Assembly (NCBI GenBank): GCA_036674765.1
Contig: JARVKI010000005.1
Coordinates: 558,001-622,000, forward strand
Reading direction: 5' to 3'
From: Seiridium cupressi
Taxonomy: Eukaryota; Ascomycota; Sordariomycetes; Amphisphaeriales; Sporocadaceae
DNA: 64,000 bases
In this document: positions 8,222 to 52,757 of the stretch, piece by piece
How positions within the stretch are numbered: position 1 is the stretch's first letter
Layout: each line of letters starts with the position of its first letter
Position numbers and translations under genes: made by a program
Notes under the pieces: model-generated
What the model saw: only the letters and a program-made list of their open reading frames with translations
The model's database searches: none
What the model was told of the DNA's origin: nothing

Positions 8222-10966
8222 ATGGCTTCCCCCGATCCCATATCCGAAGCAAACGCCACCATCTTTGGCCCATATGTCTATGTCTTTGATCCCAGCATGC
8301 CGGCAGCTGCCATCCAGGCGAGGGCCACGGCGATATTTCAGAGGATGGAAGCCAATGAGTTCGGCGCAGAGGGGTATGCCCTGCTCTTCAAGCCCGGCAC
8401 CTATCCGGTCCTCTTTGATGTAGGCTTCTACACGCATGTCGCTGGTCTTGGACAGAACCCGGACGATGTACTCGTTGATGGTGGCGTCAATGTGCCTGCC
8501 TATTGGATGCCCAATCGAAATGCTACGTGCAATTTCTGGCGTTCCTTTGAGAACCTGGCTATTCGTGCTTCGGATGCGACCAACTGTACCACAACTATAG
8601 CCGTATCCCAGGTAAGTACCAGTAGAGGAATTTGCAATAACCACCCCAAAATCATTGACGCAATAATACATAGGCAGCACCTTTACGACGTCTGCATATC
8701 AAAAGTGCGAATGGTTTGTGGCTGTTCCAGGTTGATCCGGCTACTGGTGCAGGTGGCTACGCGAGTGGTGGTTACAGTAAGCAACTTCCGGAGTTATTTC
8801 ATGCCCCGTATAGCATATTTTGGGTGTTTAAAGGTTCCTGGTTCAGCGTTTCTGCTCTTGAAATATGGGTTTCGATTCCCGGCAACTCATCAAGCATGTT
8901 AGAAGAGGCAAAGACTGACTCCAGATGTTGTAGTGGCAGACTCGGTGATTGATGGCCAAGTGCTCCCAGGATCTCAGCAGCAATGGCTATCTCGGAACAG
9001 CAAATGGGGCAGCTGGGCCAACGGTGTCTGGAACATGGTGTTCGTGGGCAGTGCTAACGCCCCGAGCCAAGCCAACTTCCCCACGGAGCCCTACACCACG
9101 ATAGATTCCACACCTGTCATTCGTGAAAAGCCGTATCTGTACATTACGCGGGACGGGAACTACGCTGTTTTTGTTCCAGCTCTCCAGACAACAACTCAGG
9201 GGCCGAGCTGGACGCAGGGTGCCACCCCTGGCAACTCGATATCAATCGATGATTTCTACATTGCACAGCCACCGACGGCAAATGCCTCTAGCATCAACTC
9301 GGCATTGAAGTCGGGAAAACACGTTCTCTTTACGCCGGGAGTCTTTCTGTTGGACGAGGCTATCGAAGTAACAAGCGCTAATACCATTATACTAGGTATT
9401 GGTCTACCTTCGCTCATCCCTACCAGAGGCAACTCAGCAATCCGCGTGGCTGATGTCGATGGCGTCACGATTGCCGGCCTCATTATCGATGCGGGAACTA
9501 TCAACAGTCCGGCACTCCTTGAGATTGGCTCTACAGGAAGCGCATCAGCTAGACATACTCCCAATCCGATTTTCTTGTACGATCTGACAGTTCGCACAGC
9601 TGGACGTCAAGCAGGCAAGAATGACGTCGGGATAATCATCAACAGCCATGATACAGTGTGTGACCAAATATGGTTATGGCGCGCTGATCATGGCCCTGGC
9701 GCCGGATGGGATTCGAATCCTTCGAAGAATGGGATCATAGTTAACGGCGATGATGTGACAATATACGGTCTCTTCAATGAACATCACAAGGAGTACCAGA
9801 CACTCTGGAATGGCAACGGCGGTAGAGTATACTTCTACCAGTCCGAGATACCGTACGATCCACCAAATCAACAGAGCTGGCTTTCAGAAGGCGGAACGAG
9901 AAACGGATATGCTTCATACAAAGTGGCCGACCATGTGACCACCCACGAAGCATGGGGCTTGGGTGTCTACTCCTATTTCCGCGACGCACCCGTCAAAGTC
10001 GAGAACGCTATTGAGGCCCCCGGCGCTGATGGTGTGAAGCTGCATCACATGACGACAATCTGGCTGAATGGCGTAGCTGGAAGTGAGATAAGTCACATAA
10101 TAAATGGTACTGGCAGCCGGGTATGTGGTAATAGCCCCCCTGAAGCTATGCGGCAGGCTGTGAAAGAGTTCCCAGGTCAAGCTCCAGATGCGCCTGGTCC
10201 ACGCCCTTCACTGCCCGCCCCACGGCTGTCGAAACGGGGTCTCTGCTGGCCAGCTGATAATGTTGACTCAGTCATGCCTTTCACCAAGCCTGGCACTAAG
10301 ATCAATTGGCTCTACAATTGGAGTCCGAGCCCCTCGCCCAAGGCAAAGTCCGGCGTGATTGATTTCGTCCCCATGCAGTGGAACCATGTCAACATCGATG
10401 AACTTCGCGATAAGCTGAATCATTGCGGGGCTCAAACATTGCTGGGCTTCAACGAACCAGAACTGCCGGACCAGTCCAACATGTCCGTCGACCTCGCGGT
10501 GAACGAATGGGTACGTTGCATCGAGCCGCTACGGAAAGTGGGCGTCCGCGCCGGGAGCCCAGGCATATCGTCAGCTCCCCAAGGTGTCGGCTGGCTCAAG
10601 GACTTCATCTCCAAAATCCGGGCCCAGGGCAGCGACATTGACTTTTACTGTTTCCACTGGTATGGGGAGAATCTGGGCCAGTTCTACGACTACATATGGT
10701 CTACATACTATCAGCTGGGCCCCGAGAAGCCCGTGTGGATCACCGAGTTTGCTTGCACGAACTGGAACAAGGAGAATCCTCTGCCCAGAGAGCACGTTGA
10801 GAACTTTGCGAGGGAGAGCGTCAAGTATCTCGATACGCTCGACTGGGTCGAGCGGTATGCTTGGTTCGGGCCTATGAGAGATCCGGGTACCGTGGGGAAA
10901 TGGGCTGCAATGCTGGATAGTGACGGGAAAATTACGCCGTTGGGTGTGACGTATAGAGATGAATGA
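8222..10966 (+). CDS. Parallel beta-helix (pectate-lyase-like) / GH128 glucanase fusion protein
   Basis: Probable carbohydrate-active protein of 841 residues. Residues about 1-570 match the fungal 'coagulation factor 5/8 / GH55-like' beta-helix family (for example LLFKPGTYPV, HVAGLGQNPDDV, ASGGYMADS, VEAPGADGVKLHH-type blocks). Residues about 590-841 are an Asl1-like GH128 domain, with the presumed acid/base Glu672 in GFNEPEL and nucleophile Glu769 in WITEFAC. GH128 enzymes cut beta-1,3-glucan. Exons are 8222-8611, 8674-8776 and 8934-10966; the first intron (8612-8673) is ordinary and the second (8777-8933) is introner copy A, in phase 1. Both domains share one uninterrupted frame in exon 3. 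No signal peptide is seen at MASPDP or at the alternative ATG 8174, which is odd for a secreted family, so an unrecognised upstream exon is possible. Confidence 0.75.
8777..8933 (+). mobile_element. Introner-like element, copy A (157-nt intron)
   Basis: Runs from GTAAGCAACTTCC to the TAG at 8931-8933 and is spliced in phase 1, giving GGY-M-ADS in the host protein, which fits the family. It matches copies B (35495-35651) and C (51903-52059, minus) end to end without gaps. The first 38 bases are identical to C and differ from B at one base. The branch site CTGAC lies 16-20 nt before the 3' end. A CAG at 8922-8924 is also in frame, but copies B and C show that the distal TAG is the family acceptor. 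Confidence 0.85.
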
Positions 10967-13357
10967 ATGGACAGAGATTGTATATCTCGTCTATCGGAGT
11001 GCTGTTTTGGAGGGTCACATTGTTGATATAGTAAAGGTCCCAGTTGAAACGTTACTATTTCTGTGCCCACATCCACCACAGCCCGCAGAGATCTCCCTGT
11101 CGCCGATTATCAGAGAAGTGGATGCTTATAGAAGGTCGGGTTATTAAATCGGACGAACCATTAGAGCGTGCAGATCGATCGGGGAGATAGCATTGACGTT
11201 TCATGCAGTTTGTGTATAAAAATAAAGATGTGCCGGGCGTTGCGACAGGCATGCTGCTTCGCCACTAAATATGCAGAATCCCTTGCTAGGCGCACCGGAT
11301 GCGATGTGACATCGAGACACAAGTTATCGAACATGACAACTTTTGTTCTTTCGCCATAGATGATGTGAAACAGTTCAATTCATGAATATCTGCAGGCTTT
11401 GTATGCAGGGAGGATCCTATATGCGGCTCAACCACCGCAGCGCAGATTACTATATGCGATCACTTGCATATGGTCTATCATCAAAACAGCAATTTTTAGA
11501 AGACAATCGGAAACGAACGGAGAGAAACCGGCCGCACTTGACATTTTGTTGTCGTGCGATTGTCGAGCCACCTGTCGTGCACTGAATAGTGAATAAACTG
11601 AATACATATGTAGACTGACTACCCCATCATCCACATCTGCCTGCCTCCTTCTCCTCCTATGCTACCGCATGAGAGCTCGAAGGTTATCCCGACAATCAAT
11701 ACATCTCATGTGGCTGTGCGTCCCTCTTCATCTGTGGGCTGGGTTCCCGAAGTGTGCATCTTCTACATCATGCGCTCCTTATCGGTAGTGCCTTGCAGAC
11801 GGTAAGGCGTTCCTCCAGCCTCCTTCGGTGGACTCGTTCGCCTTTCCTACTTCCTAAAGCGGCACCATATCGACGCTGGTTCGCTCTTCCCGAGCCAACG
11901 TCAACCCTGACCTTGATGCCATGGGATTCATGAGAATAGCAATAGATGTGGGACTCGCCTTGGCCGTCCAAGCCATATTCCAGCTGGCATGGTAGTGACG
12001 AGTGAGGCGATTCTCTCAAAGGGTCATAATGTAGAGAGCGATCCGTCTCAGTCCCTTGCATATGCAATCATGGTACTGCGAGCATGGATACACGTAGGCA
12101 GAGGGATCATCACCACAATACTGTAGCCGTAGAATATGTCAATAATTTATCCGTGGAAGTGTTAAACCGGAAGTACAGGGACTTCTAAAGACGTCGAGCA
12201 GACAGATCGTTTCCTCGAGGCAGCCTCATGGATAACGAAACATTTCGCGCTATCTTGCTTTCGTCAACAGAGGCCGAGCCGCATTCTGGATCTGCACCAG
12301 GATTGTGTCCTCCTTATCCGAGGTTCAGATCAACAGATATGACCTGATTCATAGAGAGGCTACCTATCATGATTCCAAGCCACGAAACGCGCTTAATATC
12401 CCTTCTGCAGCGATGTTCGGTTCGCGAATCGACGATGCAACGAGGCAGTGCATATTTAGCGCGAGGAGACCAGCAAGATTGCCCAATTTGGATAATGAGA
12501 AGTCCGCTAGCGATGACAGCTGTGCATTCCCCTACCACTGGTAATTAAACGTCATGCACGCTATCGAACGGCTATACTTGCTGTTTCTCTTCTTCAGACG
12601 TCCTGATGTCTATTCATCGTGAATCTGGAGAGACGACATCTTCCCTCAGGGGTAATTTGAGTTGTCATATCTGGTGCTGCGTGTGGGCTATATCGGGAAA
12701 CCCGTTTCGCGCTGATTGGCTCGGGCGTCCCGTCAGGAAGGGGAACCTTGTGCTGGAGCATTAACACGGTGACATGTCGGAGGCTTGCACAAGGTCAACC
12801 TAGAGCCTCAAACCCCTCATAACAGGTAAGGCAAATAGAGTGTAGATAAATCCGAGGGCGCAGATTCAGGATGGGATATTGGCCGGGAACCGAACTACCA
12901 CCCTACCCACCATTTTTGTAGCATGTGAGACCACCTATGAGCCCGCTAGCTTCGGGGGTGGGCTTGCCGTCCGCTAGTGGAGACAGCCCACTAAACCGTG
13001 TTGATTTGCTGACCGAACGCGATCTGCCAAACCCACTAAACTGGGTGACTGGGCCCTAGAACACGGTCGGCACACCGGAGCAAAAGAGGGTGCGTGAGCA
13101 TGGGAGCGGCCGATCCTTGCATTGCCGTCCAATGCTACTTACACATCGAGCTGCATACAAAATGAGGCGGTGCCTTCGACCAGATGGCAACGTTGCCAGC
13201 AGCCAATTGGATACCCTGAAACCATTGTGGTGATCTGTCGACTCGTGCTATTTTGAGCACCTTCAAATATCCCGAGCCGCCTCCTACATGTGGGGAAAGG
13301 CAACGCCAGTTTTGGACGTCTTTCAACGCAACCTACGGCCATGTGTAGAGATTCAAG
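10967..13357. other. Gene-poor 2.4-kb intergenic stretch
   Basis: Short frames only, none with domain resemblance or sensible splice partners. The last few hundred bases before 13358 presumably hold the promoter of the transcription-factor gene. No RNA gene, tandem repeat or transposon was recognised. Confidence 0.35.
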
Positions 13358-15366
13358 ATGGGCTCGCCAACAACAACGGGAACCACTGGCTTCCAGTTCA
13401 TCACGTCTGTGAATACCATCAAGCGTGATGACGAAACTCGGAAGAGAGTGCGCTCCCACGCGCGACGGCAAAAGCTGCCAAATGAGCCGGCATCGAAGCA
13501 GCCGGCACAGAAGAGAGCATCTCAAAAGGAAAGGGTATCGAAGTTTCGGCTGAACAAGAGGCTTTCGGCCCCTACCAGTTTGCAAACGCCGCCAAAGTCG
13601 GCCTCGCCTCCGAGTGATCCGACACCCACGGATCGGTCACCAACCCGGTCAACACTGTCTGATTCTACGTTAGCAGACCCATCACCAACGACGTATGATG
13701 TGATTATCGACGAGATCAGGGTGGAGAAGCCGGATGTATGGAAAACTGATATGATCACCAACGAACTCGTTTTCACAGTGGCCGCCGAGCTTCCTTCATT
13801 CTCTGTTTTACCAATCCGCACGACGCCACTGACGGAGAAGTTGTTCAAATGGATGATATGTGTATGCCTTTCACCGCAGGAGAAGTTTGTGCAGAAATGG
13901 TTCGATCGATGCGGAGCACCGGCCTATTTCAACACATACCACTCCAGTTTTCTCGCTCTGGCCTTCTCTATGAACCCTCAGGGGAACTGGTTCGACTTTG
14001 TACGGACCTTTTCTAATTCTGGATTAATGCTTGGCTGACTTTCTTCCAGATAACGGTTGATCCGGCCATGACACATGGGTTCATGGGGCTGGTGGCAGCA
14101 ATGCATTGTGCCTTAGCCGAATGGGACGACATGACGACAATAGACTTCCATCGCTATGAAGCAGTAAAGTACATCAACGAAAGACTCAACCTCGAGGGCA
14201 GGGACGATGCCACCGTGTCAGATGGCGTCATCGTATCAGTGTCCCTCCTGGTTCATGTCGAAGCATTCATTGGCTCGCTGCCCGCCGCCAGAGCGCATCT
14301 GATGGGTTTGAGGAAGATGGTGGAGCTGCGCGGAGGAATACTCGACGGCTTTGGACACAGCACCATCCTCCAACGTGCTCTGACATGGGCAGACTTTGCT
14401 TATGCAACCGCTGCCCAGAGCCCGCTGTCTTTTCCGTTTATCCCCGGCCTAGCGTCTACACTGGACATACACAATCGATTTCTATCACGGTCTATGATGA
14501 TCAACACAATGTCAGCGAATCATGGGGGTGGATTGACTATTCGAAACCGAGAGACCATTGAGCTATTCGAGCTCCTCTATTCGACGTCCGTAGCAGTCAA
14601 CACATTTGATTTCGACAAGCTGGACAGCCTTCAAACGAAACGAGGGCAAATGAGCGACAGCGTATACATGGTCGAGTACAGGCTATGCACTCTTGAGGAC
14701 GCGATTCGTTTGCGGGCAAGTATAGTGCCATCACTTTCACCAAACGGAGTATCCGACAATCAAGCCTTGATGAACTACAACCATCCCACCGACCTGTCGG
14801 ACGCGTTGGTTTATGCTAGTCACCTGTACCTGCATATGGCATTAAGGGGACAACCACCGCAAGCGAAGGGTCACAGGCTACTTGTAGAGGCATTAATGTC
14901 AAGCCTCTACCACGTAGTAATCAGCCTTAACCTATTGTCGGATACATGGCCAACTGCGACCGAGTATCCGCCAACCCAATCCCTGGAGTATTCGGTGGTC
15001 GACAGGTCCTTAAACGAGCGTTGGCTAAATCCAAACGGGGAGTACCATGCCGGGTCTTCGGATAGTACGCCTGATTCCTCGAGGGAGGAGACGAGGGACG
15101 AACTCCACGAGGACATACTTTTGTGGATACTTTTCGTGGGATCCTGTGCTCGGGTGCCACTATCTCATTCGTGGGATGGGTTTGGAACCATGACCGACTG
15201 TCGCAGTTTTTTCCTTAGCTCGCTGAGGAGATACTGCTTGACCCGAGGTATCTTGGATAGGGAAGTGTTGACCCTGAGATTGCGGGATATAGTCTGGCTA
15301 GACAGCTGGGGCGAGAAGCAACTCGAAATGATTTGGGCTCGCATTGGTACCGAACTGGGTATTTGA
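13358..15366 (+). CDS. Fungal-specific transcription factor domain protein without a Zn2Cys6 cluster
   Basis: 652 residues in two exons (13358-13999 and 14050-15366) split by a 50-nt phase-0 intron (GTACGG ... branch CTGAC ... CAG). The start FQFITSVN followed by KRDDETRKRVRSHARR is the hallmark opening of many fungal proteins with the PF11951-type (Fungal_trans_2) regulatory domain. After a Ser/Pro/Thr-rich linker (about 60-110), residues about 150-640 resemble that helical domain, including an AHLMGLRKMVELRGG motif. No CX2CX6C zinc cluster precedes it, so direct DNA binding is not evident. It could act as a cofactor or a degenerate regulator. The targets are unknown. Confidence 0.75.
14000..14049 (+). 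other. 50-nt intron in the transcription-factor gene
   Basis: GTACGG donor, CTGAC branch at 14034-14038 and a TTCCAG acceptor. It removes an in-frame TGA at 14036-14038 and joins WFDF to ITVDPAM in phase 0. Confidence 0.8.
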
Positions 15367-16144
15367 GGACACACTGTAACATTATCGCAACGGAGCAATA
15401 AGGGGCGGCAGAAGGGAGCGCATTTTGTGGGCATCTGGCGTCTAGGACAACTGTAACGATCATGGGTACAACAGGAGTTGGGAGAGCACTGGGGAGCACT
15501 GGGAAGGAACAGCGGCTAACTAGAGAGGCGTTTACATGTCCTAGGATTTCGGAGCCACGATAGCTACGATGGATTTTTACATGATGATATAAGCAGGATT
15601 CATCTCCTGGGTAGTGAAATTCACGTCTTGACTTGCGCGTATGAGAAGAATATGTGGATTTGTCCATGAAATCGGAAGAAGGAGATTGTCCTTAGGGGGC
15701 CGCAGGATGCTGACCAAAACGGCAGCGAAAAGCTGAAAGTAACCACATGCCTGCGTCACTGGCTTTCTAGTGTTTCTCAATAGTGGGCCGGCAGCGAAAA
15801 AGCCACCTACCAGAGCGGGCGTTGATCCGGACCTAAGACGGACCCAGAGGCCCAAGGAACATTTCTCATCTCCCTTCGAGAAAAAAAGCCGATAAGAAAA
15901 AATTTCGAGGGGCAGCCGCAGCCGTCAGATAAGCGGCGCTGCCACATCGGATTTCTGGCAACTCTGGCGGCAGGATTTCAAACTCTTCTGCTCACAATTC
16001 ATTTTTCTGCGCCCTGGCTTACAGGCGATTTTTGGGCGATTGCTGGTTGTATCTCCGATACACAGCGCGGGTCTTCAATAAGGCTCAACTTTGCCCCTGA
16101 ATTTATTTCTGCTTTCCCTTCTTTCCTCGCATTATCTGCCCGCG
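15367..16144. promoter_or_regulatory. Promoter and leader region of elongation factor 3
   Basis: No genes. The 60-70 bases before the ATG at 16145 are strongly pyrimidine-rich (CTGCTTTCCCTTCTTTCC), a common feature of highly expressed fungal genes. The open frame extends back to a TTG at 16091 but has no ATG there. Exact promoter elements cannot be assigned by eye. Confidence 0.4.
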
Positions 16145-19100
16145 ATGCCTCACCCAGTATCGCCGCCGATAATGATCACTAAGTCGGGGCTGACCCCTCC
16201 CCCGCCATTCGTCGAACTCCTCGAGAGCATCTTCAACGCAAAGACATCCGACGAGTCGATCCAGCGCGCATACGCCCTCTGCGATGAGCTCTTGTCCACT
16301 GTCGGCTACCAGGGTCTCACCGACTACGGTGTCCTAGCCAGGGTCAGGGCCGGCGCAGCCAACAAGAAGAGTGGCCTCGAGCGAGAGTCCGCCCAGAACC
16401 TGCTTGGTGCGCTCTTCGAAAGGATCGCCGCAAAGCAGCGACTGAGCGAGGTCGCTTTCTTGCGCCGTCAAGATGGCATGATCGCCCCTGCCTTGGACGC
16501 CCTGTCCGACAAGGGCGCCGTCGTGCGCGATGCCGCCCAGTATGGCATCGATGCACTCTTCAGATCTTTGAGCGCCGAGGCCCTCGTGGTTGGTCTGCTG
16601 CCCGCTGTTGTTACCTATCTGTCAAAGAAGACCGGCAAGTGGCAGGGACGTGTTGGCGCCTTGAAGCTGTTGCAGAAGATGGCCGACAAAGCCAAGATGG
16701 AAATTGGCTCCACCAAGGAAGAAGCCCAAGAGAAGGACTTGCTCAGAGAAGCCATGGGCGCCAAGCTGGCCAGTCTTATCCCCATCGTGGAGGGAGACAT
16801 GCACGATCTCAAGTCCGAGGTCGAGAAGCAAGCCCTTGTAACCATGACCTCCCTTACCACCCTGCTTTCGAACGACGACGTGGCTCCCAGAATTCCTCTC
16901 CTCATCGAGACGATGCACCACCCCTCAACCCAGACCCTCCAGAAGGCCATCCACGCCCTTTCGCAGACCACCTTCGTCGCTATTGTGACATCTCCCGTGC
17001 TGGCGCTCCTCACTCCTTTCTTGGAGCGTACGCTAAACAACCCCTCCACAACCCAGGAAGTGCTCCGACAGAGTGTGGTCATCACTGAAAACTTGACAAA
17101 GCTGGTGCACGATCCCATCGAGGCTCGTACCTTCTTGCCCAAACTGCAACCTGGTGTCAAGAGTGTCCTCGGTCGTGCTTCTCTTCCCGAAGTTCGTGAA
17201 CTTGCACAACGTGCTCTCGATGTTATGGACAAGGCCATGGGTAACGAGAACGCTGTGGTGGAGAAAATCAGCGCAGATGATGTATGGAACGTTGTCCAAG
17301 GCGAAATCAAGAAGGCTGTTGGTGGTCTCGACATCCTCGCCGAGGACGAGCGCGTCTATCTCTGCGAAATGGTGGCCGAGGACGTCAACCATCGTCATAT
17401 TTCCCGCATTGAGGACAGACTGTCACCTTACTTGAAAGATGCAATGAAGTCTGAGCCCAGTGAGCCAGTTGGCGTCGCGGTCCAGCATTTCTATCTCGAG
17501 GAAGACCAACGCAAGTTTGGTGTACCGGAGAAGGAAGACGATGGCGAAATTGAAATCGTCAACGCCGATTTCTCTCTTGCCTATGGAGGCATGCTTCTGC
17601 TCTCGCACACCAACCTACGCCTCCTCAAGGGTCACCGTTATGGTCTCTGTGGCCGCAACGGCGCTGGCAAGTCTACACTCATGAAGAGCATCGCCAATGG
17701 CAAGCTGGAGGGATTCCCCTCTCAAGATGTTCTGCGGACCTGCTATGTCGAGCATAACCAGGGCGAGGATGCCGAGATTACCATTTTGGACTTTATGGTG
17801 AAGGACCCTACCATTGCTTCCGAAGGTCGTGAGCGCATCTCCGAGGTCTTGGCCGAGTTTGGTTTTACTGCAGGTCCCGAAGGTAAACAGTCTCAGCAGG
17901 TCGGCTCTCTGTCTGGAGGTTGGAAGATGAAGCTCGCCTTGGCGCGAGCTATGCTGCAGCGTGCGGATGTTCTCCTGCTGGACGAACCTACCAATCATTT
18001 GGATGTTGCCAACATTGCATGGTTGGAGAATTACCTCAAGACTCATACCGACATTACCAGTTTGATCGTTTCTCACGACTCGGGCTTTTTGGATAATGTT
18101 TGCACCGATATCTACCACTACGAACCGGGCAAGAAGCTTGGCCACTTCAAGGGCAACCTCAATGATTTCGTCAAGGTGCGGCCGGAAGCCAAGGCTTATT
18201 ACGAGCTTGCAGCGACCACTGTGCAATTCAAGTTCCCGCCACCAGGAATTCTGAGTGGTGTCAAATCGCAGACAGCCGCAATCATCCGCATGACTGGCTG
18301 TTCTTACCAGTATCCTGGCGCGTCCAAGGTCCAGCTTGCCGACGTTTCCTGCAGACTTACTCTTTCCTCCAGAATCGCGGTCATCGGCCCCAACGGCGCG
18401 GGCAAGTCCACCCTCATCAAGATGTTGACAGGCGAGACAATTCCCACTGTCGGTCGCGTCGAGAAGCACCCTAACTTGCGTATTGGCTATATCAAACAAC
18501 ATGCTCTAGAGCACGTTGAAATGCATCTTGAAAAGACTCCGAACCAGTATCTGCAATGGAGATATGCCAACGGTGATGACCGAGAAGTTTTCTTGAAGCA
18601 GACCCGTATCCTTTCGGACAAGGACAAGGAACAGATGGAGAAGCGCGTTGATCTTGGCGATGGCAAGGGTGAGAGGCAAATCGAAGCCCTGGTCGGTAGG
18701 CAAAAGTGGAAGAAGTCTTTCCAATACGAAGTGTAAGCATTTCTAGAATATCCCTTCTGTGAAGACAAAACTAACATGCCTGCTATTAGGAAATGGAGAT
18801 TCAGACTTCCGAAGGAAAACTCACAGGTCTCGCGTGAGACTCTGTTGGAATGGGGATTTGACAAGCTGATCCAGGAGTTCGACGATCATGAGGCGTCTCG
18901 TGAAGGTCTCGGTTACCGTGAGCTTCAGCCGAAGGTCATCTCCAAGCATTTCGAGGACCTCGGACTGGATCCAGAGATTGCGAATCACAACGAGATTGGT
19001 TCCTTGTCAGGTGGTCAAAAGGTCAAGGTCGTCATTGCAGGTGCCATGTGGAACAACCCTCATTTGCTTGTGCTGGATGAACCTACCAATTTCTTGGATC

Positions 19101-33738: not shown

Positions 33739-35756
33739 ATGGACCCAGGCACTGTTCTTGCAGTCATCTCACTGGCTGTCCAGGTCATTGAACTTGCCAA
33801 CAAAGCCGTCTCGACGTTCAATCGTTCGCAGAACGCACCACAAGAGTTGAGGGAATTCAATCTCTCCGTGCAGAGGCTCCTCAAACAATCCCGGAAGCTC
33901 CAGGCGAACTTGCAGATCATTTCTATGCAAATAGACAAGGAAGACATCCACCAGATAGAGGACACCCTTCATCTATGTAAATTGCTGTTTGATGAACATG
34001 AGGAGAAACAGCGCCGGGAAGGTGTTATCAATGGTGTTATTCGGACCTTCTTTTGGCCTCGCTCCATCAATGAGCGGCTCCTCAGGTATAAAACGCGGAT
34101 AAACGAGCACTATTGGACGATTATACTACCGCTTTGGTCCCAGTGTATAAGGCAAGAGCTCGTCGGGCGACGGGAGATTTATCAACTAATTTATTGCCTC
34201 GCAGTGAGCGAACGAGTCCAGACCTGGAGCGAATCGTCAATACAAAAGTCCGAGAACAGCTAGAACAGATAAATTCCCGTATTGGCAGCCTCAAGGCGCT
34301 CAAAGAAAGTAGTAATGTGGAGCAAGAAATTCGAAATGTGGATCATGACTTAAGAGAGATACGATCCGAATTAGGGTTCCAAGTTGAGGAAGACTTCTTC
34401 GAGAGTCAGGATGGGGACCTTGCCGACGACGTATTATTAAGTGGTACAGAATGCCTCTTTACAATCATGGCGCCAACATCAGTGCACGGCTGACAAATGC
34501 CGCTTTGCAGATAGCCGGCGTCGATCAAGCCTGAGATTCAAGACTGCACCAACGAAAATGTACGTTTTCAATAGCCTTTCATAGCTCTGTACCAGACCTA
34601 ACCGGAATCCAGGTTTCTTGACGGTGCAATCCAGCATGAAAAGCTCAAGCTGGAGCGACTGCACATCATGGCACGAGATAAAAAGACGAGAATTCTTCAG
34701 TATCAGAACAAAGACGCGTCAATACATGTCACACATATAGGCAAGTACATGCTTGATCCATACTGAAGGCTGGAGGTTGCATCTTACTAACTGGCGACCA
34801 GTTCCGTACGGATGCATCCCACGCACCGAAACCAGCCGGGCAACTGACGTCAAGTTCACGGACCTTCAGACCATCACAGTAGTCGACAGCAAGGGTTACC
34901 ATCTGTATCACGTCAAGCCGAAGTACCATTTCGATACGTTGGAAACTTGCGAGGAATTCCAGTCGACGTTGCGAGAGAGAGATCTCTGTGGTGCCTTCGA
35001 CACCGTGCGCATCAAAGAAGCTTCCGAGGTGACCTCTACAAGACAAGTGGTGCAGTTTTGGCGAAGAGAGGAGCCACACAAACCTCCACTCCTCACGATG
35101 ACGTTCCTACAGAACGCAGCTCCTGACAGCGCCGGTACACAGTTCAGAGAGATAAATGTCATGGACTTTGAGAACGAGCCTTATCCTCATTCGACCCTGA
35201 TTAAGAAACTGTCCGGAAATACTACTAGTTCAAACACGCTAGACCTCAGGCCACGATTGCCCATCGACAGAAAAAAAAGCTTGTGTATTCGTTTCGAATC
35301 AGAAGGAGGTACGTGGCCATTGTGTACTCACCAGCAAGCTGACTTACCAGACCCCAGATGCCTCAAGGTTTGTTGAACGGTTCAAAGAACTCCACCCTTA
35401 TCGCACTGCTTCAGCTGTTCCATCCCTGATATCGACGTCCGAGACCTTGTACACGCATGCGACTTCAACGGCACCCACTCCTCAAGATGCGAGCGTAAGC
35501 AACTTCCAGAGTTATTTCATGCCCCGTATAGCCTGTCTTGGGAGTTTACCGATTCTTGATTTAGCGTTAGCGCTTTTGAAACTTGGGTTCTAACTCCCGA
35601 CACCTCACCAAGCATGTCAGAAGAAGCAAAGACTGACTCCAGATGTTATAGTGGAATACACTATCCGTACCAAGGGATCTCACCGTCTTAAACTTGGGCG
35701 AGAGCCCAAATGACTGGGAGGAGTTGCACCGAGTTATTAATAAGAGTTGGGAATGA
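33739..35756 (+). CDS. STAND/NLR-type N-terminal domain protein with a PH-like C-terminal region
   Basis: Predicted 527 residues in seven exons: 33739-34142, 34205-34430, 34483-34559, 34613-34740, 34802-35308, 35358-35494, 35652-35756. Residues about 1-110 (VLAVISLAVQVIELANK and on) look like the helical N-terminus found on fungal STAND/NLR and ankyrin proteins. A charged coiled coil follows. The region ending LCIRFESEGDASRFVERFKEL reads like a PH-type fold, though I cannot name a family. No P-loop or NACHT/NB-ARC motif is present. Intron four (34741-34801) is GC-AG and intron six is introner copy B; all later junctions are in phase. The first junction is the weakest: the donor could be GTGTAT at 34143 or GTATAA at 34086. 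It sits 370 bp from a HET pseudogene, which suggests an allorecognition or stress-signalling context (inference). Confidence 0.6.
34741..34801 (+). other. GC-AG intron (61 nt)
   Basis: The donor is GCAAGT after ATAG, matching the strong consensus usual for GC-AG introns. The branch is ACTAAC at 34785-34790 and the acceptor GACCAG. Phase 1 is kept on both sides (THI-V-PYG). No GT donor nearby gives an open frame; reading through meets a TGA at 34765. Confidence 0.65.
35495..35651 (+). mobile_element. Introner-like element, copy B (157-nt intron)
   Basis: Phase-0 intron joining PTPQDAS to WNTLSVPRD in the STAND-like gene. About 85% identical to copy C over 157 ungapped bases (23 differences by hand count, mostly transitions). 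A 7-bp inverted pair, GGGAGTT (element positions 46-52) and AACTCCC (98-104), could form a hairpin. Use of the upstream CAG would put a TAG in frame, so the terminal TAG is the acceptor. Confidence 0.85.
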
Positions 35757-36125: not shown

Positions 36126-36746
36126 GTAAGGTTGCTGCTGGGTACGGGATCTCCCAAGGTGGTAGAGTTCATGGGCTGGATCCCGCCTGGCGCCATTCTC
36201 TGCCAAGTCTGGGAATATGAGGTTACTCTTCTCGACCTCAGCCTGCCCAGATACGCAGCATAAATCAATGAAGGGTTCGTAAAACTCAAAAATGCATGTG
36301 CACATGCCCGAAAGGATGGGCTCGAATATACATGGATCGATGCATGCTGCATCGACAAAAGCAGCAGTGCGGAACTGTCAGAGGCCATCAACTCGATGTT
36401 CAGCTAGTCATGCGGCGCGGCCATTTGCTTCGCATTTATGTCCGATGTATCGACTTTCGACGAGATCGATAGCGATAATTCAGACTTCTCACAAAGGCAA
36501 TGCTTCACGTGCGGCTGAACGTTGCAGGAGCTTATTGCTGCAAAAGATGTCGTTCTCGGTTCCAAAGACTGGAAAGATTTAGGCACAAAAGCCCTGCTCT
36601 CCCAACATCTGCTACGGTTAACATCGGTCGATATATCCTTTTTAGAGGGTGCAGACCTTGCCACTGCTAGCATTGCGCAACGAAGGTCTTGGGCGTCACG
36701 ACGAGTCACGATAAGATCCGAAAATAGTGAAGAGCTCTTCCGATGA
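36126..36746 (+). pseudogene. HET (heterokaryon incompatibility) domain pseudogene
   Basis: A single frame shows the HET domain in order: VRLLLGTGSPKVVEFMGWIPP, AILCQVWEYEVTLLDL, then LEYTWIDACCIDKSSSAELS, AINSMF, MSDVSTFDEIDSD, LQELIAAKDVVLGSKDW, and SWASRRVTIRSE. Intact relatives trigger cell death after fusion of incompatible hyphae. The frame is broken by stops at 36261-36263 (TAA), 36405-36407 (TAG) and 36516-36518 (TGA). The last two stand where the family has Trp, so TGG became TAG and TGA. The start codon position reads GTA. Nearby changes such as Arg to Gln and Arg to Cys are also G-to-A or C-to-T. The domain ends abruptly after 36746. No frameshift is needed, so point mutation, possibly RIP, killed it. 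Confidence 0.8.
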
Positions 36747-43543: not shown

Positions 43544-44072
43544 CTAGTTGCCCGAGAGCCCTGATTCCCTTCGCATAGCCTCTCTTTGCGCCTTTGCATC
43601 CTCGGCGGCCTTCGCATCGTCCCGTAACCTCTCTTGCTTGTATGCTCTTGCTGCCTCCTCTTGTACCGTCCAGACTGAAGGGTTATGTTAGTGTTTTTTT
43701 GTCCTCGAATGACTGCGCAGGACATATTCTGGCGTACTTGGTCTATCCGACTTGGAGAAGTCCTTTAATTGGTTGACAAAATCATCGAACTCCTGCTGTT
43801 TCTCGAATCGTCTCTCCAGGCTCTTCTTTTGTAGGTCGGGGTTGTATCGCTTGAAGAGCTCCTCGTCGGTCGGCTGTACCCAGAAGACAAGCGCTGGGCC
43901 ACCTACGCAGACTACGATACCGCTGCGTTTCGGATGATCGTCAGTGTGCGTTTGCGACGGGCAAGGCGCAAGGCGCAATGTCGGAGACGGAAGGCGGAAA
44001 TCATGACCTGAAAGGAAGTACTTACGTGCCCAGCATCTTGACCCATGTCCCTAACTTTGATTTTGCCGCCAT
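43544..44072 (-). CDS. CBP4: Cbp4, assembly factor for mitochondrial cytochrome bc1 complex
   Basis: 120 residues in three exons: 44072-44026, 43922-43738, 43674-43544. Introns are 103 and 63 nt, phases 2 and 1. The protein opens [15 protein letters not shown], has one membrane span ([15 protein letters not shown]), then [20 protein letters not shown] and the family signature SDRPIWTV, ending in a charged helix ([20 protein letters not shown]). Cbp4 acts in the inner mitochondrial membrane with Cbp3-Cbp6 during cytochrome b synthesis and bc1 assembly. The unspliced frame hides it: exon 1 is only 47 nt and the longest open frame reads through both introns. Confidence 0.88.
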
Positions 44073-47000
44073 CTTGATCGTATTTTGCGGAATAACAAAT
44101 ACGACGACACATTCACGTTGGCCGCTCTGCTAGTCATGGAGCTTCCGATGGAGCCAAAAGATTCAATGACGATTATCCAGGGTGGAGTGTCGGGTGGCGG
44201 TGCAGTTGTGGCGTTTACATATGGTTCTCTCGCCCAATCTACAACAACAGGCTGTCTATCTCAGCGTGGTACTGGGGCATAATTGCTACTGATGCATCAA
44301 CCTTGAGTGCAATGAACTTCATAAAGTTTGCCCTCAATCCACACACTAGCCAATAACTGAGGTATTTGCCTGGAATCCGAGCTCTGAGTGAGCAATGTGA
44401 GTTGGGTTGGAGGCGTTTCGTCGCTGGCCGCTTCCGTACGGCCCAGCGGTTCAATCTCAACCTGGCTGTGATACATTAGGCGCCACGAATAAGCGCGCTG
44501 TTCATGCTGTGCAGATGGCTTACAACGTGGAAGCATGTTGCAACAGTTAAAGCTACCTATTCATGGTTCGGTGGCTGCTCTAGACGGGTATGTGCGTTGT
44601 GGGGAACGGCTTATATCCTAAACATCAGTTCTAGGCGTCGTGCGCCCATGGCCAATCCGTGGAACGCCCGAAAGAAGGCAGCCAACCTCCTGCACAAAGC
44701 CAAGGGAAGTATTCTAGGCGTTGCTCGGTGTTAGGATTGGCATGCTCCTCCCGTCTTGACTGGAAACCCGGGGGACCTGAGGATCTGCCAGCGCAGCATG
44801 GGTGATGCTGTGTAACCACCCCGTGGAGGACCGTTCCGTCAGCCGTGATGTGGTCCACGGCGCTTGGCTGGGGGGATATCGTGGATATGGTATTTCCTGC
44901 AGCCTGATAATTCCTTGTTCTGACAAGACCATCGGCATCAAGTGGCAATAAGAGTGATGCTTCTTCATTCCTTTAGTGGCTCAGGTACGCGGCAGCTAGG
45001 TTTTGTATAAACAAGCTGCCGGCTTGTTTTAGCGCGTGATGCTTGTAAAGTGGTTCACAGCCTCCTACTGGCAGCTGGGGTTGGGCAATGCCTATTCAAG
45101 TCTCACATTGGCCACTCTTAATCAGCCCATGACCTGCATGGCAGACTACTTCCTAGTAGGTTACATGTAGCTCGGCCCTTTCTTCGTCTATAAGCAGGCT
45201 ACGAGGCCTCCTGATGTCAGCATGGCAAGTGCCGAAGAACCACTGCTTCAATGTAGTTATTGGATTTTCGTCCAGCAGGGCCTGATGAAACAGGCAGTTC
45301 GAGTTACCAACATTCCTGCCGTTGTTGATGTATAATGTCCAGTAAGCGTACAACTAATACCTGAGCATTAGGTGGTCTGCTGTACTCCATAATTAGAGCT
45401 TAATGCCCCCACCCATAAGGCATGATGTTCAATTCTCAAAGTACCTTACCTACCAGATCCCAAGGCTCCCCGTCCCTCGTCTTGCTTTCCTCTGATTTTT
45501 GTTCCGACAACTTCGCACCATGTGTATACCATCTTGACCGGTAAAGAATGATAATAGATTCCTTCACTTCGGTCGCAGCATCGAGACCCGCTCCCCTGCT
45601 GGAGCAATAAAAGAAAACAGCATCTGTACATAGAGGTTTGGCACCCAAGAATCCGGCTCATCGGAAGAAGTTTGCCAAGACTTTGGCGGATTCGGAGCGC
45701 CCAATCAGTGGCTTCACCCTCGTGACCCCTGACTGATTTGATACAACGCTTGGGTATGACGATAGCGATGCTGGTATTGCTTGAAGATGCTACGAGACCA
45801 ATTCAATGCACTGATCCTCAAGTTCTCCTGGAAACCTCCTTGCAGTGGATGATCCCGACATCTTCAGACGTTTTCAAGTGAACGTCCGGCGTCTTTACCA
45901 GGGCCAGGGTCATGTTGGCCAAACAAAGCAAATGATCTAGTTCGTGGGTGATTAGTCGTATCTCGACCCGAGAGCGAGACATAGGACCCAACTTCGGAGC
46001 TGCAAGTCAATAGGAATGCACTCGCCAACCTCTCATGGCGCCATTGTACCTAGCACAATACAAAGGCAGTACAGTACGCAAAGGTGCCCGCCCTCTAACA
46101 AAGCAGCCAGGGCTCGTTCGGCACTTACGGTACCATCCAGGCCAAGGGTTGAAGAGCATTTCATTGATTAACCTGAATTTGACCCGCAACCCAGGGTATC
46201 CCTCTGGCACTTGTCATTAAAGTCGGTGCTGTGCAGCCTCGTCCGTGATCACACTCGTCTACGCTCAGGCCCAGCATAATCTTCTTCCCTGTTGATCAAA
46301 GAAGATCTTGATTGCATTTACACTAAGCGTTTGGAGGAAGCTTTCCCTCGAGGAGGACTTCTACAACGTCAGCTAGTGGGTTCTAGTCGAAGTCAGTTTT
46401 TGAATCAGCAGACAATCCAATTCCAAGAGCGGGCGCGCTTGTGGGGAGTGAGACATTACTTAAGGTAACCTTAGCACCGATTCTGGGGGTCACCTGCCGC
46501 TGTTCCCTCGAGCGAGATCTGTCCGAAATACCTAACCGTGTTAAAAAGCCCACGAATGCATCCGTCGCTTGTCATCTTGGCCGCATGCCACTCAAAGGGA
46601 CCATTCGCCGAGCTACTGCCCTGGGAGGTACCTGTTGCATTAGGCCGCCTGCCCCCGTCCCGCAAGACCCAAGACCAGGTCCCCATCTTCCTGCTGTAGC
46701 GGGGTCCTGCCCACTGTAGTGCTGGCTGGCAACGGTTATTACCTTCCTACAAAACCCACCGTGCCCCGAAACCGACGATCAGCACCGAGGCGAAACCGCC
46801 CCCTCCCAATTTTAGAAAAAGCTCACACTGCGCTCCTCTCCTTTGCGACAGCGGACACAGTGCCGCTGGTAACACTCGAGCGCTGTTCTTGGGCTGCCTG
46901 GAGTTGGCCGATCTGACAAGGAAATCCTCCCGGGTACCTGGCAGTAACCCGAATCCTACGACCAAGAACAACACAATAACCACCCACACCCACACCCACA

Positions 47001-47183
47001 CGCACGTTGCAGCTTATGGCTTATCCATGATTGCTACGAACAACCCCTACCGATCATTCGCCTGCCGTAGACACCGACCGCGCAAGAGAGAGCTCGTGTT
47101 CTGTTGTCCCCGAACAGAGGCCTTCCAATTGCCTGCACTCTTGAGGTAGCGGCGGCCTCTCGTCAAGATACCTGCGCGCAAAA
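44073..47183. other. Divergent 3.1-kb intergenic region
   Basis: CBP4 and CHS4 point away from each other, so both promoters lie here. No convincing gene. An 8-bp inverted repeat (AAACAAGC with GCTTGTTT, 5-base loop) sits at 45009-45029. The CHS4 proximal part is C-rich. No RNA gene or transposon was recognised. Confidence 0.35.
46980..47006 (+). repeat. CACACC microsatellite in the CHS4 leader
   Basis: Short CACCCA/CACACC reiteration, about 180 bases upstream of the CHS4 start codon. Probably in the promoter or 5' leader; no function inferred. Confidence 0.6.
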
Positions 47184-50068
47184 ATGGCCTACAACGGAGG
47201 ATTCCAGGAGCAACGCCCCTACGCAGGACCCGCGGGGCGGAGACCTGCTCCCGGCGGAAACATGCCCCCTCCGCCACAGCAATACGACCAGTACCAGGAC
47301 GATTACGGCTACGATTACAACGGCTACGATGATGGCTATGATCAGGGCTACGGCGCGCCGCAGCAAGATATGAATTATGGACGAGGAAGACCGCCGCCAA
47401 ACGGGAATTTTCCACCACAAGATGGATATGGAGGAGGCCCTGGAAGAGGTGGACGCCCGCCCCCGCAAAATACTAGAGGTCCGATGCCGAGGGGACGAGG
47501 AGGACCAGCGCCAGGTCCTGGCCGTGGCGGTTTCGGTCCTGGACCAGGAGGCCGACCAGGTCCTCTTGAGCGCTCAGCTTCGTCAGATCCTCTAGGTAAG
47601 ATGTCAAGAGACACAGTTGCGCGAATACAAGCTAATTGCAGCAGCCAATCGTCGAGGTGCACCCAACGTGATAAGTCCGCAGGAGCAAAGCTTCGGAAGC
47701 CCGTTCCCGAACATGCCCGGCAAATCTAGAAGATCAGACCTCGACGAAGAGAACCGGATACTAGCCGGCATGGAGAACATGAGTATGAGCGGCGGGGGTG
47801 GAGGCGGGCGCGCTCCCCCGAGGAGACAGAACATGCCACCACCTGGGAACAGGGGTCCTGGACAGAGGCGGCCAACAATGGATGATGGATATGGCGGGAG
47901 ACCGTCCATGGATAGCCAAAGGGGTGGTCCGCGGGGACCGCCTCAAGGCTTTCCTGACAGGCGTGGACCACCACCAGGCCCGGGCTATGGTGGGTTTCAT
48001 GATGATGGTTACGGAGGCGGAATGCCCCCGGACAGAGACGGGTATGGGCCGCCCGGGCGGAGCATGACGTTGCCAAGCAATCCAGAGCCGCCAATGGGTA
48101 TGGGCATGCGATCACCGCCGCGCGGAGACAGTATTCCACATGGACCGCCAGTTAGGGGCCTACCTGCAAGACCGTCCACAGCACAGGGCAATCGTCCGCC
48201 GCCGCAAAGAATGTACCCTCCTCAAGGACCACCCGGACCGCCTGGACCTCCAGGACCTCAAGAATGGGACAACTACGAACCACCAGGGCAAGCACCATGG
48301 GCACAACCCCCGGTGCGGGCCTCGTTTGGTGATTTCTACGACGCTTATTATCACCCTAGGAACAGTGATAATCAGTATCCTCCGGGGCGCCCGAACGACA
48401 TACCAGATTTTGATGAAGCACCAAGTCAGGGACCCAGAGGCTCCTTTGATCAGCATATGCGTCCGGGTCCTGGAATGCCACAGCAGGGTCCAGCGCGCGT
48501 CGCTGAACTCAGCCGAACCAAATCTCAACCAAACCTGCGTGAACCACAAGCCGCAGTCTTTGAAATGGCCGGTGATCTGCCTCCTGTTCCCACTGGTGGC
48601 TTTCAGGCATACAACCCCCAGCAACCAGGACCACCTGCTGGCTCTTTGCCCAATGTTCCTCCTGCCAAAGCACCCCAGTCTGGGCCAGGATCAGGACATC
48701 CTGCGCCTATTCGACCCGGGCTGATGCCAAATTCTATGGTAAATATGCAAGACAGACCTGCACCGCAGCGGCAATATACTGGGCCGCCTCCAGCAGCTAT
48801 GCTCGCTCAGGGTAGACCGCAACCTAGTCCCCAACAACATGGTCGACCTGGCTCAATCGAACATGTTCCGGTCACCGTGGAGGAATTAGAGCGTCTACGT
48901 GCTGTTATTAAAAATGAGCCGAATGATCAGCAGTCGGCGCTTACGCTCGCGAAGAAATTAGTAGAGGCGGCTGACGTTTTAGTCCCCAAATTGCCGGACC
49001 CTAAGGCTCGTGCAAGATCACGAGAACGATACGTCATGGACGCTCACAAAATTCTCAAGAAGCTGGTGAGCGCACAAAATTCCGACGCCATGTTCTTCTT
49101 GGCAGACTGCATGGGCCGTGGCATACTTGGCTTTGAACCGGACAACAAGGAGGCTTTCACTCTGTATCAGTCTGCTGCGAAGCTTGGCCACGCTGCTGCG
49201 GCTTACCGAACTGCCGTTTGCTGCGAACTAGGCAACGACGATGGAGGCGGCACGCGCAAAGACCCGTTGAAGGCGATTCAATGGTACAAGAGAGCTGCGA
49301 CGCTCGGCGATACTCCCGCGATGTACAAGGTTGGAATGATCATGCTCAAGGGACTGCTTGGTCAGGCTAAGAATCCTCGGGAGGCCGTCGGCTGGCTCAA
49401 GAGGGCAGCTGAACGCGCTGATGTCGAGAACCCCCATGCATTGCATGAGCTTGGTCTCCTCTACGAATCTGCACAACCTAATGATGTCATCCTTCGTGAT
49501 GAGCCTTATGCACTCCAGCTATTTGAGCAAGCCGCCAACCTCGGGTACAAGTTTAGCCAGTTCAGAATGGGCTGCGCTTATGAGTACGGTCTTATGGGCT
49601 GTCCGATTGACCCGCGGTCTTCTATCATGTGGTACTCGAGGGCCGCAACACAAGAGGAGCATCAATCAGAGTTGGCCTTGAGCGGTTGGTATTTGACCGG
49701 TACCGAGGGGGTTTTGCAGCAGAGCGATACTGAGGCTTACCTCTGGGCAAGGAAAGCAGCTCAAGCAGGGCTGGCCAAGGCTGAATATGCCATGGGCTAC
49801 TTCACGGAAGTTGGCATTGGCATCCCCGCCAATCTGGAAGATGCGAAACGTTGGTACTGGCGAGCTGCTGGTAAGTCTAATCCTACCCAAGTTGCGTGCA
49901 TTACCAAGGGGTACTAACCATCGAAACACAGCTCAAAACTTCCCCAAAGCTCGTGAACGTCTCGAAGATCTAAAGCGCTCCGGCAAGAACGGAGGCCCAC
50001 GTCAAAGAGAGCGTATCTCGCGAAGCAAGATCGGCAAGCAACAGGAGGGAGAGTGCTCTGTGATGTAG
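47184..50068 (+). CDS. CHS4: Chitin synthase regulator Chs4/Skt5 with Sel1 repeats and CAAX box
   Basis: 925 residues in three exons (47184-47595, 47642-49870, 49932-50068; introns 46 and 61 nt, both phase 1). Residues 1 to about 410 are disordered and rich in Gly, Pro, Arg and Tyr. From about 435 there are tandem Sel1-type repeats (for example FFLADCMGRGILGFEPDNKEAFTLY, AIQWYKRAATLGDTPAMYKVG, EAVGWLKRAA, AYLWARKAAQAGLAKAEYAMGYF). The last exon encodes a basic tail ending CSVM, a CAAX prenylation motif, as in yeast Skt5, which is farnesylated to target the membrane. Skt5 activates chitin synthase III at septa and bud necks. The last exon is needed to reveal the CAAX box; reading through its intron would end the protein at KGY. 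Confidence 0.92.
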
Positions 50069-51522
50069 AGCACGCAGGCACTCAGAACTCCACAGCGAGA
50101 GAACCTCGAAGAATCAGTTCTTCCTCCACGGAGCTCTTCCTTGCGAGATCTCATGTCATTCGGCCGTCGCCCTGATGTAAAGCGCCTGAAGTCGACGCCT
50201 GCTGCCGCTGCCAAAAGAGCAGATTTGTTAGGGGCAAGAGACCCGTTTGCTGACATTTGACGAATCCCATTTCGCTTCCTTCTATTCTTCAAGGAGCAAT
50301 ATCGTATCAGCATGCATCATTTATTTTCATGCGAGTTTCCCATGACAGCAGGTGGAAAAACATTTGCTGTTTGGTATAGATGTGTTGTATAGTACGGACA
50401 TGGATTTTGCACAAGTAACTCCTAACGCATCATTCGGCGTACTGGGATCAAAACATGATGAACGAGAAGACTAGGAAAATTGGACCTGGCGTCTGGTTAT
50501 CTTACTCGATGATACCATGGACATGATGAAATTCATTGAGGCTCAAGGGCCTGGGGAGTTAAATGCGACTGAAGCTTGAGGAAAGGGAAAGAGAAAAGAA
50601 TATACATAATAAAAAGAACAATTTGGCTCTTATAGAAACGAGCGTCACTGTGTAACCATGCTTCGATCTCATAGCGCCATGCTTTCGTTGTGGGATTGGA
50701 ATTCCAGGCTCGACCATCATTCCCATCAAGACCAAACTGAATAGAGCAGAGTGCATCAAGCCCCAGACGCCGGAGAACAGGAGGCCGACCGATCCTGTGG
50801 TAGAAACATGAGATAAACACCTAAAAGCAGTGTCGGGCATGTACTCGCTACTATGGCCTAGAAAATGGCCAGAACGATAAGCATTGGGGTCTAAAATACC
50901 TCATTGTCTTGGAGACATATCGTTCAACGCTATCTATTGGTGATTGATGCTGTTGACTTGGTCACAAATAATTGATTGTCCAATCTGTGAAAGGTGATTG
51001 GTCGATCTATAGACCCTCGTGCTGACGCCCGAGATATTATACGTGCATTGGCTACATGGACGTGTGCCTTCTTACGGATTTGAGCCATTCTTATACCATG
51101 GCATGAAAATCGATAAACACTATGCCCGTACCTCATAAAACTCTTCCACCTCCGTTGTAGCGGTCCTCCGTTCGACTGTCGGAAGCACTAGTCTGGTCAT
51201 TTAGGGTATATCCTTTGAGTCACCATAATATACCAGCATATAGCCACGAATCCGTCATGCCAGACTGCGATAAGATGCCATCTTGGGAGGCGTTTTTCAA
51301 CAAGTACTTCTTTGATCAAGCTCGCAAAGGCATATGAGTATGAGGTTCTCCTAAGTTTTGCGTCATAGACTCTGACTTACATTGTTCATGTACGGCATGT
51401 TGCAATATCACGGTGTTTACGGTAATTCCCAACTCTATTGTTCCCTACAGTTGTGATATAAGCTACTTTTACCAGGGCCCTCAATGCTCGCTGGAGCATT
51501 CAGAACATGCAGGAAGTAGTCA
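50069..51522. other. Convergent intergenic region
   Basis: CHS4 and the iminopeptidase gene converge here. At 1.45 kb it is long for two 3' ends, but open frames are short and unlike any family. Nothing else seen. Confidence 0.35.
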
Positions 51523-52757
51523 TCAAGCCTTGATCGACTTGAACTTGTCAGCAGCATCGACCAGAGCCTCCTCAATAGTCCGCTCATGAGCACTGTGGCC
51601 AGAATCACCGATGATCTTGTACTCGACGTTCTTGTTGTCCTTCCCGCCCAGCGCCTTGTACAGGTCCCAGCTCGTCTTTGGCGGGCACACGACGTCATAT
51701 CGGCCCTGGATGATGACGATCGGGAGATGCTTGATCTTGTGGGCGTCGTCGATGAGCTGGCCATCCTTCATCCATCCCCCATTCACAAAGTAATGGCACT
51801 CGATTCGTGCGAACGCCAAGGCCCTATTATCGTTAGCAACGTCGTCTCCGAGATCGATTAGGTTGATTCGTACCACTCTGGACTGTCTGCCTTGGCAATG
51901 TACTACAACGTCTAGAGTCAGTCTTTGCTTTTTCTAACATGCTTGATGAGTTGTCGGGAGTTGAGAACCATGTTTCAAGAGCGGAAACGCTGAACCAGGA
52001 ACCGGCAAACTCCTAAAACAGGCTATACGGGGCATGAAATAACTCCGGAAGTTGCTTACAGTTGGGTCTACAATCAGCTTGCTCGTGGACATTTCCCATC
52101 GACTCCAAGCATCAGCACTGTTTTGAAGCAAGAATTAGCTTTGGATCTTGACATCAAAGGGGCCGAAAAGAGGACGTACCACTTCAGCTTTTCCTCCTCA
52201 TTGTCACCGGTAAGTCTCTTGTAATAGGCTTGCATCATATCCCCCCTCTCCTCCTCAGGAATGACGGACGCATAATCGTCAAAGTGGTCAGCGAACAGAA
52301 AGTTGGCTCCTTGCTGGTAGTACCACAGCAGCTCCTCTCGACGCAGGGTGAAGATACCTCGCACGATCAGACCGAGACACCGGTCAGGATGCTTCTCCGT
52401 ATAGGCCAGCGCGAGGGTCGAGCCCCACGATCCGCCAAAGACGATCCATTTTTCGACGCCGAGGTGCTCTCTCAGCTTCTCGATGTCCTCCACCAGGTGC
52501 CAGGTGGTGTTGTCCTCCAGCGAGGCGTGCGGGGTTGATTTTCCGGAGCCGCGCTGGTCGAACAGGATGCTGCGGTAGTGGGAGGGATCAAAGTATTGTC
52601 TGTCCGAGTCTTCAATGCCTCCACCCGGGCCTCCGTGAAGGTAGACGATTGGGACACCTGAGGGTGCGCCGCAGTCCTCCCAGTAGATGGAGTGAACCGA
52701 GGAGACGTCAAGGTGACCTGACTTGTTGACGTCAAACTTTTCATATAATGGGGGCAT
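51523..52757 (-). CDS. pip: Proline iminopeptidase (alpha/beta hydrolase, peptidase family S33)
   Basis: Removes N-terminal proline from peptides. 321 residues, about the usual length. Exons on the minus strand: 52757-52180, 52117-52060, 51902-51874, 51823-51523. Motifs: LHGGPGGG (residues 40-47, oxyanion), RSILFDQRGSGKS, nucleophile Ser110 in VFGGSWGSTLAL, Asp in QGRYDVVCPP, and His in GDSGHSAHE, so the catalytic triad is complete. Splicing restores KLKCADAWSRWE, then YIAKADSPEWALAFARIECHYF, both typical of the family. Intron two is introner copy C, and exon three is only 29 nt. No signal peptide; cytosolic. Confidence 0.93.
51903..52059 (-). mobile_element. Introner-like element, copy C (157-nt intron)
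   Basis: Minus-strand intron from 52059 to 51903, phase 0, joining KLIVDPT to YIAKADS. About 88% identical to copy A (18 differences in 157 by hand count), with no gaps. Inverted arms GGAGTT (element positions 47-52) and AACTCC (98-103), and an inner CAGCG/CGCT pair, could fold. Ends CTAGACGTTGTAG; reading the upstream CTAG as acceptor would leave a stop, so the end is the final TAG. Confidence 0.9.

Follow-up and report, generated by a model that had tools for sequence, protein, structure and literature searches.

Genomic distribution and age of a 157-nt intron family

We identified a family of canonical-looking, predicted GT-AG introns, each about 157 nt long, that has multiplied in the genome of the ascomycete Seiridium cupressi, and whose copies lie next to strongly preferred exon bases, above all a T immediately downstream of the intron. 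Three copies, named A, B and C, lie in the 64,000-nt stretch of contig JARVKI010000005.1 (positions 558,001 to 622,000) that we analysed and call the window. As the original prediction had stated, each of the three is 157 nt long and they align end to end without gaps. A and C differ at 18 positions, B and C at 23, and A and B at 27. All three start with GTAAGC and end with TAG, and the 38-nt 5' end, found three times in the window, did not occur in any of 100 dinucleotide shuffles. The copies and their flanking target bases, in window positions and with ^ marking the insertion point here and below, are as follows.

8777..8933, + strand: introner copy A, 157 nt; host gene for a glycosyl hydrolase; predicted phase 1, Met codon split A^TG
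8775..8776, + strand: 5' target flank of copy A, CA
8934..8935, + strand: 3' target flank of copy A, TG
35495..35651, + strand: introner copy B, 157 nt; two candidate host frames
35493..35494, + strand: 5' target flank of copy B, GC
35652..35653, + strand: 3' target flank of copy B, TG
51903..52059, - strand: introner copy C, 157 nt; host gene for a proline-iminopeptidase-like alpha/beta hydrolase; predicted phase 0, ACT^TAC
52060..52061, - strand: 5' target flank of copy C, CT
51901..51902, - strand: 3' target flank of copy C, TA

We searched the whole genome (45,361,241 bases in 228 contigs) with probes from different parts of the element. With up to 3 mismatches, a 24-mer from the 5' end had 107 matches, of which 100 were listed; a 26-mer from the 3' end had 62 and an internal 22-mer 88, each with 0 matches for the control, and the 18-nt 5' arm alone had 105 matches with up to 2 mismatches against 3 for its control. 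Merging the listed places gives a lower bound of at least 125 places on 70 contigs. The expectation of many copies genome-wide was thus borne out, and the finding of end-to-end similar introns in many copies in unrelated genes agrees with the earlier view that the intron itself has multiplied and is rightly classed as introner-like. However, the family is much sparser than the window suggests: 3 copies per 64 kb would extrapolate to about 2,100 in the genome, whereas the 125 places amount to 0.18 per 64 kb.

A first candidate scan of the genome scored 40 of 112 candidates. In all, we read 73 copies and used 72 of them, 48 with long and 24 with short flanks, which leaves 52 of the 125 places outside the sample; the dropped copy (L118) lacks a clear 3' end and may be broken. 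For the long-flank copies the acceptor was picked among TAG and CAG by its fit to the last 12 bases of the family, with one end corrected by hand, and the ends of the short-flank copies were all set by hand, several old copies offering more than one AG. As GT and AG were used for placing the ends, their presence is not independent evidence of splicing. Among the 88 matches of the internal 22-mer, 74 fall on listed 5' places and 14 outside them; the 13 of these 14 that were read are all readable as GT...AG introns, with T at exon position +1 in 11, their ends again being placed at GT and AG and hence giving no independent test.

For 61 copies, pairwise identity has a median of 0.82 and divergence from the consensus one of 9.6%, and the identity to the nearest neighbour across the 72 copies has a median of 0.90, ranging from 0.62 to 0.968. 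Even the youngest pairs of copies are not identical, and the family has been active over a long period. When the copies were masked, the flanks of 44 blocks gave three similarities at E ≤ 1e-6, one of them due to the paralogy of HET genes; since the flanks of different copies are nearly all dissimilar, the insertions are taken to be independent. The M28 peptidase that hosts another copy is 99% identical to proteins of S. cupressi and S. cardinale. An introner-derived probe had 0 matches in viral contigs, and an exact 18-mer occurred in 6 contigs of a bacterial collection, about the chance expectation for that collection. Within the 216 kb of sequence compared, no other repeated introns were seen at E ≤ 1e-6.

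Target preference and seamless insertion

Among the 72 copies, T occupies exon position +1 in 70 and G in 2, and position +2 is G in 59, A in 10 and C in 3, T followed by a purine being found in 67 copies. The bias is stricter on this 3' side than on the 5' side, where position -2 is C in 47 copies and position -1 is A in 44 and G in 2. The complete CA^TG is present in 27 copies, close to the 25.0 expected if CA and TG are independent of each other. By comparison, among 43 predicted ordinary introns of the same genome +1 is T in 10 and -1 is G in 18, and the difference in +1 T between the two sets is highly significant (Fisher p ~1e-17). Between -40 and +40 of the 48 long-flank copies, only positions -2, -1, +1, +2, +3 and +7 differ from background at p<0.01. 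A purine stands at +7 in 53 of the 61 younger copies and in only 2 of the 11 older ones, and we dropped this position as part of an extended target. The original prediction of dissimilar flanking exons therefore holds at a distance, but not for the two or three bases that directly adjoin the intron at either end, which mostly resemble CA^TG.

As far as the open-licence literature that we searched reaches, a strict preference for T at this position is new for ascomycete introners, and we found no report there of such a target bias; nor did our literature search find reports of introns studied in Seiridium genomes. Spliceosomal intron gain is an old open question, and the published ascomycete families look targetless. 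A nearly strict target base combined with a directional target is a testable signature, for which empty sites can be predicted and enzymes or RNA-target pairings can be searched.

We aligned the joined exons of six enzyme genes to PDB chains. In five of them (serine dehydratase, beta-galactosidase, isoaspartyl peptidase, ADP-sugar pyrophosphatase and leucine aminopeptidase) there is no gap, and no residue is gained or lost at the join; for the sixth, a reductase, the PDB match is too distant for judging the join. In the two genes checked against annotated Seiridium proteins, which are gene models, the predicted join is present: the aminopeptidases P0001 and P0002 and their relatives have DMTGF there, and the second case, P0121, is described with copy A below. 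No target duplication was detected, direct repeats of 2-8 nt at the insertion ends being no more frequent than in shuffled pairings. Judged by these comparisons, the checked copies interrupt formerly continuous sequence, with no base added or removed.

Empty counterparts of an occupied site are found in HET genes. At C93:122108, a copy interrupts a HET gene at WIDT^CCID, and 48 of the 57 genome matches outside this gene run through the insertion point. One such relative lies in the window, 0.6 kb downstream of copy B, and its DNA at the empty site reads GATGCATGC.

36270..36404, + strand: broken gene with a HET domain (PF06985), downstream of copy B and holding an empty CA^TG site
36343..36346, + strand: unoccupied CATG in this HET paralogue, counterpart of the C93:122108 insertion point, with the cut between 36344 and 36345

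A new intron position is thus seen, by paralogues within this genome, in one well-tested gene. In an MFS gene on C82, most of the best paralogues likewise run through the insertion site. One paralogue, at C46:143648-144074, breaks at about the residue where the C82 gene carries its introner, and this break may be an ordinary intron in the same position, whether by parallel gain or by descent.

Host genes, orientation and codon phase

The claim that removal of each copy restores an open frame held for two of the three window copies. For copy A it is secure by homology. The host gene matches Pfam PF11790 'Glyco_hydro_cc', its relatives carrying names such as GH55 or pectate-lyase-like, and the predicted protein is 100% identical to S. 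unicorne P0121 across the 676-aa downstream exon. The sequence of P0121 across the join is GGYMADSVIDG, exactly the predicted join, and GGYMADS is also found there in Truncatella and Neopestalotiopsis proteins, which are annotated gene models. For copy C the case is good: removal gives DAWSRWEMSTSKLIVDPT followed by YIAKADSPEW (read by eye), with predicted alpha/beta-hydrolase domains on both sides of the join, and an ordinary 50-nt intron is predicted at 51824-51873, 29 nt beyond copy C in the same gene. For copy B a restored frame is not secure, as there are two candidate frames, the upstream 211-aa open reading frame (ORF) has no Pfam match, and the gene downstream is the broken HET gene.

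A first frame test gave a median of 46 codons against 34 under the null, with 46 of 48 copies above 15 codons against 87%, and the phase that it assigned automatically to copy C was wrong; since it was little above the null, we used homology instead. A small coding-potential model was also too weak, choosing the antisense strand for 12 of the 48 copies, several of which have sense Pfam domains. The Pfam scan covered the longer sense exon of 47 of the 48 long-flank copies, in sense frames only. Matches were found in the scanned exon of 21 copies and in a neighbouring sense ORF of 4 more, and copy A was added through a longer piece, so that 26 of the 48 copies have sense-strand Pfam domains. For 14 copies lacking a gene assignment, the longest nearby ORF runs in sense in 11 cases and in antisense in the other 3, one of which has a DnaJ domain some 300 nt past the intron. 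A sense bias of the insertions is therefore likely. In the 27 genes with a trusted phase (partly determined by eye), codon phases 0, 1 and 2 occur 15, 7 and 5 times, while the expected numbers are 3.3, 17.1 and 6.6 from CA^TG sites and 4.7, 10.7 and 11.6 from ^TG sites.

Some host genes have an unusual arrangement of copies. In one apparent MFS transporter gene (L051), two copies (C66:230181-230335 and C66:230356 onward) are separated by a 20-nt exon, and removal of both gives MALLNYLTDAYEIFA (by eye). Two further copies (L055, C2:500168 and C2:501123) lie less than 1 kb apart with sugar-transporter domains downstream of both, apparently in one gene. At C26:39028 (L011), the start codon is seemingly split A^TG, as judged by eye from the downstream peptide.

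Possible routes of multiplication and comparison with known systems

We consider the chances about evenly balanced that the family moves as excised intron RNA, inserted before T-purine by a reaction resembling reverse splicing in which the intron 3' end is joined first. In such a scheme, the excised RNA, as a lariat or debranched, would be held by the spliceosome or a spliceosome-like complex, which would attach its 3' end before a T-purine dinucleotide of the coding strand, the substrate being either DNA exposed by transcription or a transcript later copied back. The 5' end would be joined second, the insert would be copied into DNA by the cell, and splicing would subsequently hide it. The T at +1 would be strict and the A at -1 looser because the 3' end joins first, and the copies would lie in sense because coding-strand RNA enters the coding strand. 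By analogy with group II introns, which read the base that follows their point of insertion, the intron RNA might even act as a site-specific retro-element that reads T-purine, and best CA^TG, through the base beside its 3' end, inserting seamlessly and in sense. We put this forward tentatively and think it rather unlikely; if true, this fungus would gain introns by a targeted reaction of readable specificity and not by random capture.

Several observations weigh against excised RNA as the mobile form. We know of no preference of reverse splicing for ^TG. The excess of phase 0, before Cys, Trp or Tyr codons, goes beyond the availability of targets and is not predicted by the proposed mechanism, and 22 of the 48 long-flank copies have no Pfam support in a scan that, being restricted to sense frames, is uneven for orientation. 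Furthermore, the near-terminal arms, which in copy A lie as follows, form a weak stem.

8782..8796, + strand: 5' near-terminal arm of copy A, CAACTTCCGGAGTTA, with partial complementarity to the 3' arm
8916..8930, + strand: 3' near-terminal arm of copy A, TGACTCCAGATGTTG, overlapping the putative branch-site motif

The motif in question, the putative branch site, is CTGAC at 8915-8919. Of the 15 near-terminal positions, 13 are able to pair in some copies, and the consensus duplex beats shuffles at about the 1% level, but the fold of the whole element is not unusually stable (z of -0.8 against mononucleotide shuffles), and the arms show no covariation within copies, the paired fraction being 0.899 against 0.903 with shuffled 3' arms. 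This absence speaks against a stem maintained by selection. Old copies do not show conserved terminal arms either, as their 3' arm (0.652) is preserved scarcely better than the interior (0.604). One copy (L089) has lost parts of both arms and is still readable as GT...AG.

A DNA-level route, which we regard as unlikely, would make the family a non-autonomous element with subterminal inverted repeats that a transposase cuts and pastes at CA^TG without target duplication, only sense, exonic and spliceable copies surviving or being noticed. The target is near-palindromic, the inverted arms together with the flanks read CA(G)TA...TAGTG, and the insertion is seamless and site-specific, all of which would suit such an element. 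However, the target is asymmetric (T at +1 in 70 of 72 copies against A at -1 in 44), which weakens the case for a palindrome-reading transposase, and sense-genic assignments are frequent (26/48). In addition, no longer element with the same ends was recognised among the 11 places found by the 18-nt 5' arm alone, where about 200 nt were read each; these places hold diverged copies of about 150-166 nt, one of them with no clear 3' end. These points leave room for a diverged or lost partner, and the RNA and DNA routes differ in their predictions. Spy elements insert at AAA^TTT and Helitrons at A^T, both without target duplication, and thus share with the Seiridium family an insertion between fixed bases. 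They differ from it in their targets and in that the Seiridium family is strongly 3'-asymmetric, with no transposase or partner seen at the places read. The DNA-transposon introners of algae and protists are likewise mobile, high-copy introns with inverted repeats near their ends, according to the parts of PMC9860276 available to us, whereas the Seiridium family has no target duplication (k = 2-8) and carries both splice sites inside the element; the same parts describe ascomycete introner families as having neither terminal inverted repeats nor target site duplications.

A further route, the one proposed for Hypoxylon (stw)introns, is that double-strand breaks capture the excised intron RNA or a cDNA made from it; this seems to us quite improbable. 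Its appeal lies in the sister (stw)introns of the Hypoxylaceae and Xylariaceae, related fungi of the Xylariomycetidae, which in the accessible portions of PMC8469720 and PMC12403724 share with the Seiridium family seamless insertion and near-terminal repeats that complement each other, one lying between the branch site and the acceptor. However, breaks would be expected at random sites, and those portions report no exon bias, whereas the Seiridium family has a strong one and T at +1 in 97% of copies, so that a break-maker preferring CA^TG would be required. The sister [D1,2] stwintrons also differ in structure, having an internal intron that splits the outer donor after its first base (G^GT), while the Seiridium copies are single and not nested: all 72 start with GTA, and -1 is G in 2.

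Very unlikely, in our judgement, is a ^TG bias that arose by later selection, copies having spread everywhere and only those with TAG^TR junctions being spliced well enough to persist. The T is indeed kept even in diverged copies (11 of the 11 used, with hand-set ends), and CA and TG could lengthen the terminal pairing. However, the bias is absent from ordinary introns of the same genome (10/43), CA and TG are independent of each other, and conserved Cys or Trp codons in many genes (some by PDB alignment, others by eye) show that the TG was already present when the intron was inserted. A CACTA-type miniature inverted-repeat transposable element whose ends CAGTA...TAGTG belong to the element can be practically dismissed: the 3' end with its flank reads TAGTG in 59 of the 72 copies and CAGTA is found at the 5' end in fewer, but CATG plus a target duplication would then enter the mRNA, positions -2 and -1 are too variable for element sequence, and CA and TG as element ends are ruled out by the seamless joins and by the empty HET site, which already has CATG.

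The original prediction had likened the introns to the introner-like elements of Dothideomycete fungi, which is apt for the class of element but not for the host, as Seiridium belongs to the Sordariomycetes (Amphisphaeriales, Sporocadaceae). According to the parts of PMC4457414 available to us, the elements of Fulvia, Dothistroma and Zymoseptoria are introns that are nearly identical to one another, exceed ordinary ones in length and occur in unrelated genes, and they insert seamlessly, lie in sense in genes and decay into ordinary-looking introns, as the Seiridium copies appear to do. The comparison is by description and not by sequence, and the two differ in fungal class, the Seiridium family occupying at least 125 places. 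An AG/GY insertion preference, cited for the Dothideomycete elements in the part of PMC8469720 available to us, does not apply in Seiridium, where -1 is G in 2 of 72 copies and +1 is T in 70.

Two further observations concern sequences near family copies. The N-terminal part of the protein encoded by the host gene of copy A (window 8936-10963, + strand) has myxobacterial relatives, with 72% identity to Cystobacter P0128 over 66% of the query, and a transfer between kingdoms is possible. At another locus (L084), positions 3269-3392 and 3417-3540 form a 124-nt direct repeat, 87% identical, which is not related to the introner.

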